This document shows, one piece after another, positions 8,002-56,608 of a stretch of 64,000 nt of DNA (the first letter of the stretch is position 1; every line of letters starts with the position of its first letter). The position numbers were made by a program, and so were the translations under genes. Origin of the DNA: Stagnihabitans tardus (lineage in GTDB: Bacteria; Pseudomonadota; Alphaproteobacteria; Rhodobacterales; Rhodobacteraceae); assembly GCF_009925085.1 (NCBI RefSeq), contig NZ_JAABNR010000012.1:62001-126000 (forward strand). The letters run 5' to 3'. The notes under the pieces are model-generated. The model worked only from the letters and a program-made list of their open reading frames with translations. It was not told the origin of the DNA and did not search any database.

Positions 8002-8057
8002 CAGGGTGCTTTCTTGCGGTTCCGTCCGGGGGGCACACCCCCGGACCCGAGGGAAAG

Positions 8058-8110
8058 CCGGGGGTTTCACACCCCCGGACCCCCGTGGGATATTTGGGCC
8101 AAGGTGAAAG
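8058..8110 (+). repeat. Family B palindromic repeat copy 1, contains the end of xdhC
   Basis: The element consists of a GC hairpin (CCGGGGG...CCCCCGG) followed by a core GTGGGATATTTGGGCCAAGG and then TGAAAG. It matches copies at 10231, 12301, 38101, 38216, 44759 and 56553. Here the final residues of XdhC (PFTLAQISHGGPGV and the stop codon) are encoded by the antisense strand of the repeat, so the insertion appears to have replaced or extended the native C-terminus. Confidence 0.85.
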
Positions 8111-8996
8111 GGGAAGAGGCGCGGGTGAGAAGGGTCCGCATCAGCTGATGCGCGACGCCGATGGCGATGGCCTGGGGATGTTTGCCAAGGCGCGGGTCGC
8201 CGATCGGGCAGGTGATGGCGGTGGGGTCCTGTCCCAGGGCCTGCAAGCGCGACCGGAATCGGGCCCATTTGGTTTCGCTGCCGATCAGGCCGCAGGAGGC
8301 GAACCCATGGGCAAGGAGGCGGTGGCAGAGTTCCAGGTCAAGCTGGTGCGAGAAGGTGACGATCAGGTGATGGGCCTCCCTGGGGGCCAGGGTCACGGCT
8401 GTCGCGGGGTCGGGGACCGGGAGTTGGGTCGTGTTCGGCTGCCTTGGGAAGCGGTCCTGGGCGATGTCGATCCAGGTGATACCCAGGTTTGGCAGGGGGG
8501 AGAGGGTGGCTGCGATGGCCCGGCCGACATGGCCCGCGCCCCAGAGCCAGACGGGGATGCGCGGCGGGGCGATGGGGTCGATCAGCCAGCCTTGCAGGAT
8601 CTGCGTCTCGGGCAGGGCGCCTTGGGCGCGGGCCTGGGCCATGAGGCGCTTGACGGCCAGGGGCATGGGCGAGCCGTCCAGAGAGACGGCGTGCAGCGGG
8701 CCCTTGGGCAGCTCGGCCAGGGTCTCGGTCACGAGCGTCACGGCGCCGCCGCAGCATTGGCCCAGCGCGGGGCCGAGGGGGATGCGGCTGACCTGCGGCG
8801 GTCCCAGGTGGCGCCTTGCGGCCTGGGTCGCCTGATGCTCCAGCGCTCCGCCGCCGATCGTGCCATGGGTCCTCGTCGGGGTCACCAGCATCGAGGTGCC
8901 CGGCTCGCGCGGGGAGGAGCCGTCATGGGCGGCGATCAGGACCCGGGTCACCGGGCCTTCGCGCAGGGCATCCTGGAGGGCGGTCAGATCAAGCAT
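8067..8996 (-). CDS. xdhC: XdhC, xanthine dehydrogenase maturation chaperone
   Basis: The 309-aa protein has the XdhC/CoxI layout: N-terminal GSSPREPGTSMLV and GTIGGGALEHQ, the cysteine motif LGQCCGGAVT, and a C-terminal Rossmann-like domain (WLWGAGHVGRAIA). In Rhodobacter capsulatus XdhC binds sulfurated molybdenum cofactor and delivers it to XdhB. It follows xdhB by 95 bases on the same strand, matching the known xdhABC order. Its last ~14 residues are encoded by a family B repeat and are unlikely to be ancestral. Confidence 0.93.
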   Translation of the reverse strand: MLDLTALQDALREGPVTRVLIAAHDGSSPREPGTSMLVTPTRTHGTIGGGALEHQATQAARRHLGPPQVSRIPLGPALGQCCGGAVTLVTETLAELPKGPLHAVSLDGSPMPLAVKRLMAQARAQGALPETQILQGWLIDPIAPPRIPVWLWGAGHVGRAIAATLSPLPNLGITWIDIAQDRFPRQPNTTQLPVPDPATAVTLAPREAHHLIVTFSHQLDLELCHRLLAHGFASCGLIGSETKWARFRSRLQALGQDPTAITCPIGDPRLGKHPQAIAIGVAHQLMRTLLTRASSPFTLAQISHGGPGV

Positions 8997-9091
8997 TCAG
9001 CCCCCCTGTCGCCGGGGCTGGGCCGGGCCCGACCGCGCCGCGCAAAGACGGGTGCCGCGCGAAAGGGGCCGCGCCGCCCGGGCAAGGGCAC

Positions 9092-11461
9092 TCAGCCATG
9101 GCGGACCCTTTCCACCGCCATCAGCACGCGCTCGGCCGTGGCGGGGGCGTCCAGCGCAGGATAAGCGGTTCCGCAGAAGGAAAGCGCGTGGCTCAGCGCC
9201 ATCAGCGCCGAGATGCCAAGGTTGAAGGGCGGCTCGCCCACGGCTTTCGACTTGCCGACCGTGTCCTCCTGGTTGGGCTCGGTCCAGAGCGCGACGTTGA
9301 AGATGGCGGGGCGGTCGGAAACGGCGGGGATCTTGTAGGTCGAGGGCGCATGGGTCGCCAGGCGACCCTTCGCGTCCCAGACCAGTTCCTCGGTGGTCAG
9401 CCAGCCTGCGCCCTGGACATAGGCGCCCTCGACCTGGCCGATATCCAGCGCCGGGTTCAGCGACCTGCCACAGTCGTGCAGGATGTCCGTGCGCAGGATG
9501 CGGTTCTCGCCGGTCAGCGTGTCGATCACCACCTCGGTGACCGCCGCGCCATAGGCGAAATAGAGGAAGGGCCGGCCCTGGCCCCGCACCCGGTCCCAGG
9601 TGATCTTGGGCGTGGCGTAGAAGCCGGTGGAGGAGAGCGAAATCCGCGCCTGCCAGACCCATTCGGCGACGCGGGCGAAGGCGTGGCTTTCGCCCGCCAC
9701 CAGGACCTCGCCGCCCTTGAAGCGCACTGTATCGGCGGCGACTCCGTATTTGCCCGCAAGGAACTCCGCCATCCGGGCGCGGATCGTCAGGGCAGCCGCC
9801 TCGGCCGCCTTGCCGTTCAGATCCGACCCCGAAGAGGCCGCCGTGGCCGAGGTATTGGGCACCTTGCCCGTATCGGCCGCCGTGATCTGGATGTCGCGCG
9901 CCGATAGCCCGAACACCTCGGCCACGACCTGGGCCACCTTCTGGTTCAGCCCCTGTCCCATCTCGGTCCCGCCATGGGACAGATGGACCGAGCCATCCTG
10001 GTAGACATGGACCAGGGCCCCCGCCTGGTTCAGGAAGGTCAGCGTGAAGGAGATCCCGAACTTCACCGGCGTCACCGCGATCCCGCGCTTTAACACCGGG
10101 CTGCCCGCATTCCACTCCGCAATCGCGGCCTTGCGGGCGTGGTAATCGCAATCCGCCAGAAGCTTGCCCACCAGCCGCCCCGAGACCGAATCCTCGACCT
10201 CCATCCCGTATTGCGTGGTCTGAACCTCGCCTTTCAACTTGGCGGAAATATCCTGGGGGCCCGGGGGTGAAACCCCCGGACTTGCCTTTGCGGGTGAACC
10301 CCCCGGCCGTTCCGCATAGAAATTCGCCTGCATGATCGCGACCGGATCCCGCCCCGTCGCATGGGCGAGGTGGTCGATGATCCGCTCCATCCCCACGATG
10401 CCCTGCGGCCCGCCAAAGCCGCGATAGGCCGTGGCGCTTTGGGTGTTGGTCTTCAGCCTGTGGCTTTCGATGCGGATGTTGGGAATGAAATAGGCGTTGT
10501 CGGCATGCAGCATGGCGCGGTCGGCCACCGCGAGGCTCAGGTCCTGGCTCCAGCCGCAGCGCATCAGATGCACGACCTCCATGGCGGTGATGCGGCCCTG
10601 CGCATCGCAGCCCGCCCGGTAGCGGATCTTCAGGTCATGACGCTTGCCGGTGATCATCATGTCGTCGTCACGGTCATAGCGCATCTTGGCGGGCCGCCCG
10701 GTGCGCGAGGCCACCACGGCGCAAGCCACGGCCAAGGCATTGCCCTGGCTCTCTTTCCCGCCAAAGCCGCCGCCCATCCGCCGCATCTCGACCCGGACCG
10801 CCGCCATGGGCAGGTGCAGGGCATGGGCGACCTTGTGCTGGATCTCGGTCGGGTGCTGGGTCGAGGCCATGACCTGGACCCCATCCTCCGTCGGGATCGC
10901 GGCGGCGACCTGGCCTTCCAGGTAGAAATGCTCCTGGCCGCCCACTTCCATCTCGCCCTCGACCACCGTCTTTGCCGCCGCAAAACCCGTGGAAAGGTCG
11001 CCGCGTGCCCAGGTGATCGGCCCGGTTTCAAAGCGGGAGCCCGCCGCAAGGGCCTCTTCGACCGTCAGGATGGCGGGCCTTTCGCGGTAGGTCACCTTTG
11101 CCAGCCGCGCGGCCTTGCGGGCCGCAAGGTGGCTGGTCGCGGCCACCAGGAAGACCGCCTGGCCAAGGTAATGGACGGTGCCATCGGCCAAGAGCGGCTC
11201 GTCCCCCGCCACGGGCGAGACATCCGGCACATGGTCGAAATCCTGCGCGGTCAGGACCAGAACCACGCCGGGGGCGGCGCGGACGGCCGAGAGGTCCAGG
11301 GCTTCGATCTCGGCATGGGCCACGGTCGAAAGGCCGAAGGCCAGGTGCAGGGCATCGCCGGGCAGCTTCAGGTCATCGACATAGGGCGCGCGGCCCGTCA
11401 CATGCAGGGGGGCGCTGTCATGGGGAAGGGCGGCCCCGAGGGCTCCGGCTTGCTTTCTCAT
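9092..11461 (-). CDS. xdhB: Xanthine dehydrogenase, molybdopterin-binding subunit
   Basis: The 789-aa subunit holds the molybdenum-cofactor domain that oxidises hypoxanthine and xanthine to urate. Visible family motifs are [54 protein letters not shown] and the catalytic-Glu region [11 protein letters not shown]. Its ATG overlaps the xdhA stop (ATGA), giving coupled translation of the two subunits. Residues about 384-411 (from [10 protein letters not shown] to SAKLKGE) are encoded by a family B repeat on its coding orientation and interrupt the sequence between ANFYAE and [11 protein letters not shown]. The frame stays open, so the enzyme is probably intact with an added surface loop. Confidence 0.95.
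10231..10279 (-). repeat. Family B palindromic repeat copy 2, inside xdhB
   Basis: On the minus strand the element reads GGGGGTTTCACCCCCGGG, then a short GC run, then GGATATTTCCGCCAAGTTG and AAAG. It is wholly inside the xdhB coding frame and is read through in frame. Hairpin and core match copy 1 closely, which lies in the opposite orientation relative to its host gene. Confidence 0.85.
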
Positions 11462-12867
11462 GGCGCGACCTCCAGCACCGAGGTGGGGATTCCCCCTGCC
11501 TCGAGCGCATAGCGGGTCAGGAGGTTTTGGGCGACCTTGAGCCGATAGGCGGCGGAGGCGCGCATGTCGGAAAGGGGCTGGAAGTCTTGGGCGAAGGCGG
11601 GCAGGGCGGGGGCGATGCCCTCTGGCGTCAAGGCGCGGCCGATGAGGGCTTGTTCCACCGCAAGGGCGCGTTTCGGCGTGCCCGCCATGCCGCCAAAGGC
11701 GATGCGGGCGGATCGGATGATGCCGCCCTCTGCCGCCAGGTCGAAACAGCCGAGAACCGCCGAAATGTCCTGGTCGAAGCGCTTGGAGACCTTGTAGCAG
11801 CGCAGGTTGGGCGCCGAGGCGGGGATCGTGACGCTTTCGACGAACTCGCCGGGCTGGCGGTCCTGTTTGCGGTAGGCGAGGAAGAAGTCCTCCAGCGGGA
11901 TGGTCCTGCGGCTGGCGCCCTTGCGCAGGGTGAGCGTGGCGCCCATGGCGATCAGCGCGGGCGGGCCGTCGCCGATGGGCGAGCCATTGGCGATATTGCC
12001 GCCGATGGTCGCGGCGTTCCTCACCTGGAGCGAGGCATAGCGGCGCAGCATCCGGGCAAAACCGGGGTGAGAGGCGCTCAGCGCCTTGCGCAGGGTCTCG
12101 ATGGTGACGCCCGCGCCAATGGTGAGGGCGGCGCCATCGGAGGTGATCTGGTTGAGTTCGGAAAGGGGGGCGAGGAAGACGGGTTTCGGCAGGTCGCGCA
12201 GTTGTTTCGTCACCCAGAGGCCGACATCGGTGGCCCCGGCGATCAGGGTGGCGTCGGGGTTCTCTTCATACCAGGTGGCGAAAGCGTCCAGCGAGGTCGG
12301 GGGGCTGCTCGCCCCCCGAACCCCCTCGCCCAAGGGGGGCACGCCCCCCTTGGGGAACCCCGTGGATATTTCGGCCAAATTGAAAGCGATATGCGGCGGT
12401 GAGGGGAGGTCTTTTGCGGCCTCGGCGGCCCTTATGATCGGCGCATAGCCCGTGCAGCGGCAGAGGTTGCCGGCCAGAACCATGTCGTGGTCGCGCTCGC
12501 CCGTCAGGTGGGCGGTGGCCAGCGACATGACGAAGCCTGGGGTGCAAAAGCCGCATTGCGACCCGTGATGGGTCACCATCGCCTCTTGCACCGGGTGGGG
12601 GGAGCCGTCGGGCGCGGTCAGGCCCTCGACCGTGGTGATCGCCTTGCCGTCGAGCTGGCCCATGAAGAGGATGCAGGCGTTCAGCGCCCTTGGCCCCTGG
12701 TCGTCCTGCACCATGACCGTGCAGGCGCCGCAATCGCCCTCGTTGCAGCCCTCCTTGGTGCCTTTCAACCCGCGGCTCTCGCGCAGCCAGTCGAGGAGCG
12801 TCACGGTGGGGGGGACATCCGTCAGACGGACCGGCGTTCCGTTCAGGAGAAACGCAAGCTCTGCCAT
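11458..12867 (-). CDS. xdhA: Xanthine dehydrogenase, FeS/FAD subunit
   Basis: The 469-aa protein combines two [2Fe-2S] clusters and an FAD domain. Cysteines of the plant-type cluster are at 41, 46, 49 and 65 (CNEGDCGAC and NAC). The second cluster uses 105, 108, 136 and 138 (CGFC and LCRC). The FAD site is [12 protein letters not shown] and [16 protein letters not shown] 12867 has a GAGG Shine-Dalgarno; an upstream extension is not family-like. Residues about 160-191, between the FeS and FAD domains, are encoded by a family B repeat. It is the first gene of xdhA-xdhB-xdhC; electrons pass from the Mo site through these centres to NAD. Confidence 0.95.
12301..12386 (+). repeat. Family B palindromic repeat copy 3, inside xdhA
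   Basis: The plus strand shows a first hairpin (GGGGCTGCTCGCCCC), a second hairpin (CCCAAGGGGGGCACG pairing with CGCCCCCCTTGGG), then CCCCGTGGATATTTCGGCC and AAATTGAAAG. The same two-hairpin plan occurs in copy 4 at 38101 with different bases but conserved pairing. It is read in frame as part of XdhA on the opposite strand. Confidence 0.85.
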
Positions 12868-13029
12868 GGTTCTGCCTCGCCGCGGTCTGGTCCTGCGCTT
12901 CGCCCCCCGATGCGGCGGAAAGGGGCGTGGCGCCTCCATTGGGCGATGGATTGGGCCGCTTGTCCAGCCTTGCCTGCGGGGGGCCTGCGAAAGCACTTTC
13001 CGGGAATGCCGGAAAATCGGGCAGGGGAT

Positions 13030-38100: not shown

Positions 38101-38185
38101 GGGGGCTGCCGCCCCCGCACCCCCGCTTCAAGGGGAGCACGCTCCCTTTGAAAATCCCCGTGGATATTTGGGCCAGTGTGAAAAG
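38101..38185 (+). repeat. Family B palindromic repeat copy 4
   Basis: Hairpin GGGGGCTGCCGCCCCC, then a second hairpin TTCAAGGGGAGC / GCTCCCTTTGAA, then CCCCGTGGATATTTGGGCC and AGTGTGAAAAG. The plan matches copy 3 in xdhA with paired base changes. Confidence 0.85.
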
Positions 38186-38215
38186 CAAGGGGCGCGGAGG
38201 TTTGGCGCCGCGCCT

Positions 38216-38240
38216 CTTTCAGCTTGGGTCAAATATTCAT
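38216..38240 (-). repeat. Family B core copy 5, inverted
   Basis: On the minus strand GAATATTTGACCCAAGC followed by TGAAAG matches the core of the family. It faces copy 4 across 30 bases, forming an inverted pair in the gap after the zinc-ribbon gene. Confidence 0.65.
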
Positions 38241-44758: not shown

Positions 44759-44823
44759 GTCAGCTTTTCGGCTGACAAGCCAGCCGAAGATGCCCCCGAG
44801 AGATATTTGAGCCAGTATGAAAG
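44759..44823 (+). repeat. Family B palindromic repeat copy 6, supplies tadA start
   Basis: Hairpin TGTCAGC-TTTTCG-GCTGACA, then CCCCCGAGAGATATTTGAGC and CAGTATGAAAGAG. The TGAAAG end block overlaps the ATG AAA start of tadA at 44817. It also lies in the rluB-like upstream region. Confidence 0.75.
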
Positions 44824-56552: not shown

Positions 56553-56608
56553 TTTCATCTTTTCAAAAATATCCCGGGAGGGGTTTGGGGAGGGCTGGCC
56601 CTCCCCAA
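56553..56608 (-). repeat. Family B palindromic repeat copy 7
   Basis: On the minus strand: hairpin TTGGGGAGGG-CCAG-CCCTCCCCAA, then CTCCCGGGATATTTTTG and AAAAGATGAAA. The middle differs from the other copies but hairpin-plus-core order is the same. It is located between convergent RraB-like and guanine deaminase genes. Confidence 0.75.

Follow-up and report, generated by a model that had tools for sequence, protein, structure and literature searches.

The window analysed here, a stretch of 64,000 nucleotides from a 4.59 Mb draft genome, contains the XDH genes xdhC, xdhB and xdhA and seven matches to the core of a palindromic repeat, distributed as follows.

8067..8996, minus strand: xdhC (translation, Pfam)
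8024..8110, plus strand: repeat copy 3′ of xdhC with two hairpins, core from 8088 (core search)
8088-8108, plus strand: core in the 3′ copy at xdhC (core search)
9092..11461, minus strand: xdhB, molybdenum subunit, aligning to residues 8-786 of 1JRO chain B
10226..10306, minus strand: XdhB linker joining MoCoBD_1 to MoCoBD_2 (residues 386-412), mostly repeat in sense orientation
10233..10253, minus strand: core in the xdhB copy, read DISAKLK (core search)
11458..12870, minus strand: xdhA, FeS/FAD subunit, aligning to residues 4-470 of 1JRO chain A (E 7.6e-179)
12286..12414, minus strand: XdhA linker joining Fer2_2 to FAD_binding_5, largely repeat; residues 153-195 in the translation of 11458-12870
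12297..12386, plus strand: copy of the repeat within xdhA comprising two GC hairpins and the core, antisense to the gene (core search, own-genome matches)
12364-12384, plus strand: core in the xdhA copy (core search)
38162..38238: tail-to-tail core pair, 38162-38182 (plus) and 38218-38238 (minus) (core search)
44801..44821, plus strand: further core copy, 3 mismatches (core search)
56554..56574, minus strand: further core copy, resembling a second own-genome subfamily (..GAAAAGATGAA) (core search)

The repeat is composed of GC-rich hairpins and the core GGATATTTnnGCCAAnnTGAAAG. The seven core matches (at most 3 mismatches) compare with a mean of 0.10 in 100 shuffles of the window, and they bear out the initial annotation, which had reported copies near the xdh genes and intergenic copies at or near the positions found here. 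In the genome as a whole, the exact core GGATATTTnnGCCAA occurs 67 times and a relaxed core pattern 186 times, and the reversed control gives no match in either case. A perfect stem of at least 6 lies within 70 nt upstream of the core in 54 of 66 copies versus 11 of 66 shuffled stretches; lowering the minimum stem to 5 gives 57 and 35 (n = 66 each). The element is a dispersed, non-autonomous palindromic repeat of the Rhodobacteraceae, approximately 50-95 nt long, in which one or two GC-rich hairpins are followed by a 22-24 nt core. At Rfam gathering score the window yields RNase P and one tRNA only, and the repeat matches no known RNA family in that search. Directly after TATTT, 2-3 bases are highly variable within each of three genomes inspected (G017, G125 and R. 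capsulatus G121), and both flanks are near-constant.

Two of the copies near the xdh genes are in-frame insertions at domain borders, one in the FeS-FAD linker, the other where the two molybdenum-cofactor domains meet. In XdhA the insert lies between Fer2_2 (residues 80-149) and FAD_binding_5 (191-351), and its hairpins and core are 84-88% identical over 88-93 nt to at least five other copies in the same genome, so that the proposed origin of the extra residues from a dispersed palindromic repeat holds at the DNA level. In XdhB it lies between MoCoBD_1 (150-381) and MoCoBD_2 (434-718) and is 80-86% identical over 42-65 nt to at least five other own-genome copies. The peptides and reading directions are those previously described: the core is read antisense in XdhA (FNLAEIS), sense in XdhB (DISAKLK) and antisense in the tail of XdhC (FTLAQIS). 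The initial annotation had counted xdhC as a third insertion, which we reject; the copy there lies between xdhC and its neighbor, and this 3′-flanking copy takes in the stop codon of xdhC (8067-8069), XdhC ending in SPFTLAQISHGGPGV. A core regex finds the core near the xdhC stop in 3 of 136 loci, and of 19 tails viewed, four run visibly into the repeat (the window, L069, L070 and L101, all of the same genus, L070 in another frame).

Insertion within genes is uncommon for this repeat. Among the at least 186 core sites of the genome, 150 distinct ones were entered into a coding test that needs codon signal on both sides, and 148 were assessable. The hairpin-side coding region reads towards the repeat at 83 of these, the other way at 33 and is not clear at 32; because such genes mostly read towards the repeat, the usual placement is directly 3′ of a gene. 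Three of the 148 sites, in XdhA, XdhB and an S15/CocE-type hydrolase, are in frame within a gene, free of stops and flanked on either side by coding signal, and on this count we rejected widespread coding insertion of the Rickettsia type. At L011, L227 and L237 an open frame crosses the copy and coding signal is missing on one side. The hydrolase copy (PepX_C/S15; L288:1500, contig C5 near 41909) is read in a different sense frame (GYLGKDE). By eye, L308-L313 show this insert clearly, L314-L316 and L318 show it more weakly, and L317 differs, all of these being from the same genus; it is absent from L319-L323, L326 and L327, which belong to other genera, and L324 and L325 are unreadable.

The XDH insertions are not private to the window genome: across the family, and in R. 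capsulatus too, copies recur at both sites, each with its constant orientation and nearly always in a single frame. We compared 60 xdh regions of relatives, 80 named loci and the window, which gave 141 XdhB and 134 XdhA linkers, seven loci yielding no XdhA linker; the loci are not independent species samples, and L136, identical to L053, was counted alongside it in the survey of filled states and dropped from the tree. With a thresholded score built from eight subfamily consensi, in which decayed copies count as empty, the core is found antisense in 36 of 134 XdhA linkers and sense in one, and in XdhB it is found sense in 56 of 141 and antisense in none; 22 of 3376 control stretches pass the same score. 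The reading frame is shared by 33 of the 36 XdhA copies and by 55 of the 56 XdhB copies. A thresholded matrix trained on 65 own-genome copies, XDH copies excluded, gives 36 antisense and 2 sense for XdhA and 37 sense and 1 antisense for XdhB. Neither linker holds a copy in 64 of the 134 loci having both linkers, and none of 13 outgroup loci has the repeat in its linkers, this outgroup having been set by hand (nine by title and four, L197, L199, L200 and L205, titled only Alphaproteobacteria; L138 and L181, likewise titled, were kept in the sample). In a pattern count alone, tallied by hand over 48 genomes outside the family, there were approximately 150 matches versus approximately 157 for the reversed control.

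Short or unrelated linkers occur even among close relatives. Within the genus, the XdhB linker is 6 residues long at nine of 15 loci (L071-L075, L098-L101), is unrelated to the repeat at four (L076, L078, L079, L081) and contains the repeat at two (L069, L070). Different recurring XdhB linkers unrelated to the repeat were also seen, of the approximate form GTGxRFGGxxSP and, elsewhere, DL(T/A)SRGA (L076, L078, L079, L081, L088, L114 and others). The XdhA linker of L071 contains five in-frame hairpins at 36-nt spacing (ASSPPGPGTTAG repeats) and is an expanded copy.

R. capsulatus XDH has been purified in active form. In R. capsulatus DSM 1710 the xdhA copy comprises both hairpin and core; in xdhB a recognisable hairpin is accompanied by a poor core. 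The initial annotation had expected the extra segments to be absent from the R. capsulatus structure 1JRO. This expectation failed for XdhA: chain A contains FTLAQLSSGVRGQTAPA, encoded by a copy of the repeat that R. capsulatus itself carries at that site (DNA of strain DSM 1710).

Several lines of evidence indicate that the linkers resemble the repeat as DNA. When each filled linker was compared with 20 synonymous recodings of itself, the actual copy beat all of them in repeat match in 34 of 36 XdhA and 35 of 54 XdhB cases. The rare Ile codon ATA makes up 30 of 85 Ile codons in filled XdhA linkers (15-nt flanks included). Outside its linker, XdhB at the same loci uses ATA for 17 of 1222 Ile, and within filled XdhB linkers the count is 1 of 48. 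In XdhB the base after TATTT is C in 42 of 56 copies, giving the Ser codon TCN, and it is G in 63 of the 67 exact-core own-genome copies, which suggests protein-level selection at that codon. XdhA and XdhB cores of the same genome agree at 10.39 of 14 positions on average versus 7.86 for those of different genomes, and orthologous cores agree at 8.09 (XdhA-XdhA) and 8.02 (XdhB-XdhB). This same-genome similarity was measured on the 18 of 134 loci that have both copies, L152 being a poor match among them, and has a permutation p of 5e-5, the floor for 20,000 permutations.

Genomes also have private repeat subfamilies, for example GGACAGAAGAAG in G017 and AAAAGATGAAA in G125, and in R. capsulatus CCAAGGTGAAA and GCAAGATGAAA among the 100 of 175 matches listed. 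G066 appeared repeat-free by the relaxed pattern, yet it has 50 copies of its own subfamily, CCAGAATGAA (control 0); zero counts from the relaxed pattern are therefore no proof of absence. For consensi read by eye in five genomes, one to three per genome, those of the own genome fit best or tied for best with nine of ten XDH cores, G125_A and G066_A tying with the window genome; the exception is the R. capsulatus XdhB core, which fits no consensus well. The XdhA inserts of the window and its sister G001 have a like hairpin layout and cores of different subfamilies (GGCCAAATTGAAAG and GGAAAAGATGAAA), as is expected from replacement in place.

Linker states show some inheritance and much turnover. 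On a tree of XdhB without its linker (140 rows), on which the XdhA states were also counted, there are at least 33 filled/empty changes for XdhB and 25 for XdhA, counts that the thresholds inflate by scoring decayed copies as empty; shuffling gives 43.5 and 31.9 on average, with minima of 35 and 25 over 500 shuffles. Once doubtful scores are excluded, the changes number 27 and 24 versus 40.6 and 31.0. The states of the two linkers are not significantly correlated on independent pairs (median p 0.375).

We consider it probable that the inserts represent a REP/RPE-like selfish palindrome that is tolerated between protein domains and overwritten from the repeat pool of the respective genome. Copies would have inserted early and in frame at the two XDH joints, antisense in XdhA and sense in XdhB. 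The insertions would have been tolerated because the encoded peptide serves as linker, and this Gly/Pro/Ser-rich peptide would be harmless, and its insertion neutral, so that the enzyme is translated through the copies, presumably into a stable protein in this organism too. The linker copies would then have been lost repeatedly, and repeatedly rewritten to the repeat subfamily of the host genome, most likely by gene conversion from its other copies. Against this reading stand the modest recoding result for XdhB, the poor fit of the R. capsulatus XdhB core and the search for a mobilising enzyme, which gave none; the state changes on the tree also exceed the need of one insertion and a few losses, though decayed copies inflate them.

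The fixed orientation and frame across many genera could also reflect site-specific insertion, in which a putative enzyme would have placed the host's current repeat independently and repeatedly into the same short target, in both linkers and in each lineage. The many state changes and the host-specific subfamilies of the inserts are consistent with such a process, as are the junctions, which look alike by eye (core lysines followed by QTTPY in XdhB; PVPDW.. to ..PTSSDE in XdhA). We nevertheless regard it as unlikely; a Y1_Tnp profile search found no candidate enzyme, and the third host gene, the hydrolase, uses a different sense frame.

Even less probable, in our estimation, is that the inserts were selected, the mRNA hairpin and rare ATA codons slowing the ribosome at domain joints and thereby aiding folding or cofactor loading, or the peptide tuning the linker. 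Both inserts do lie at domain joints, ATA is strongly enriched in the XdhA copies, and, measured against recodings, folding is slightly stronger in filled than in empty XdhB linkers (p 0.043). However, filled linkers show no gain in folding stability over synonymous recodings of themselves (mean z of +1.11 in 36 XdhA and +0.29 in 54 XdhB linkers, in a comparison restricted to linkers of 60-260 nt at loci other than those of middling score), the XdhB copies are nearly free of ATA, and almost half of the two-linker loci have neither copy. Selection for mRNA structure was accordingly rejected, and a role via mRNA structure has little support. That the linkers are native, protein-conserved segments resembling the repeat by chance is scarcely credible, since their peptides are recognisable across genera but this reading is contradicted by the approximately 90 nt of DNA identity, the recoding test, the ATA excess, the within-genome similarity and the absence from the entire outgroup.

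The tolerated palindrome that we favor has counterparts in known systems. Rickettsia palindromic elements (RPEs) are, according to the accessible text of PMC2229807 and PMC10969869, dispersed palindromes of 105-146 bp that occur between genes and in frame inside many unrelated conserved protein genes, where their product is tolerated. The XDH repeat likewise is found both in intergenic positions and in frame within conserved protein genes, and the likeness drawn by the initial annotation is sound as a way of working. It differs in being approximately 50-95 nt long (longest matched unit approximately 90 nt), outside the RPE range given there, and in that few of its copies in this genome are genic and in frame, whereas the same two XDH sites are filled or rewritten across the family. 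The GTAG/CGTC REPs described in the accessible text of PMC3733652 are small palindromes mostly located 3′ of genes, often in inverted pairs and sometimes within ORFs, the CGTC type being common in alphaproteobacteria without a dedicated transposase. Our repeat resembles them as portrayed there in size, palindromic structure, predominant location 3′ of genes, occurrence in inverted pairs and occasional presence in ORFs, but it has a conserved 22-24 nt core and is not enriched in their tags: counted anywhere within −80 to +40, GTAG/CTAC occurs in 9 of 66 stretches and CGTC/GACG in 25 of 66, versus 57 of 66 for CGTC/GACG in one mononucleotide shuffle.

As in the REPINs of PMC3116915, so far as its accessible text describes them, the conserved core also occurs in inverted pairs. 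Across 30 R. capsulatus loci (L328-L357) there are 10 plus/minus core pairs, tail-to-tail and spanning 49-63 nt, with no other neighbors within 100 nt, and 127 sites of the window genome include six plus/minus pairs, one plus/plus and one minus/minus. Unlike the REPIN/RAYT system, the window genome and its 15 same-genus relatives (G001-G015) yielded no RAYT: the Y1_Tnp profile (PF01797) has no match in these genomes or in R. capsulatus G121, G122, G124 and G125, a partial match in G123, and matches in 6 of 73 same-family genomes (G022, G030, G044, G059, G069, G070). RAYT-driven mobility was therefore rejected.

The main text of PMC3733652 makes no mention of Rhodobacter or Rhodobacteraceae, and the accessible portion of PMC2267715 has no occurrence of Rhodobacter. 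A search of open-licence literature, outside which most subscription journals lie, gave no account of this repeat from Rhodobacterales and none of XDH linkers encoded by a repeat. The earlier statement that such insertion was not known for this order agrees with that search, which showed neither this repeat nor this order, but needs qualification, since coding REP/RPE-type palindromes are known outside Rickettsia (PMC3733652, accessible text). Coding palindromes as such are already known; the recurrent, concerted XDH case looks new.

We are evenly divided on a broader proposition, namely that a palindromic repeat without a known transposase has a standing coding site in the XDH linkers. The two separate joints, read from opposite strands, would change in step with the non-coding copies of their genome, the linker sequence of a housekeeping enzyme would follow the selfish DNA pool rather than the usual descent of proteins, and the crystallised R. 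capsulatus enzyme would consist in part of translated selfish DNA. Coding palindromes have hitherto mostly been reported gene by gene, whereas the XDH linkers offer two protein sites with empty, filled and rewritten states over many genera, in fixed orientation and frame, and with the structure of one carrier enzyme solved. This makes testable how selfish repeats may shape protein linkers, whether gene conversion occurs between coding and non-coding copies, and how palindromes may multiply without a RAYT.
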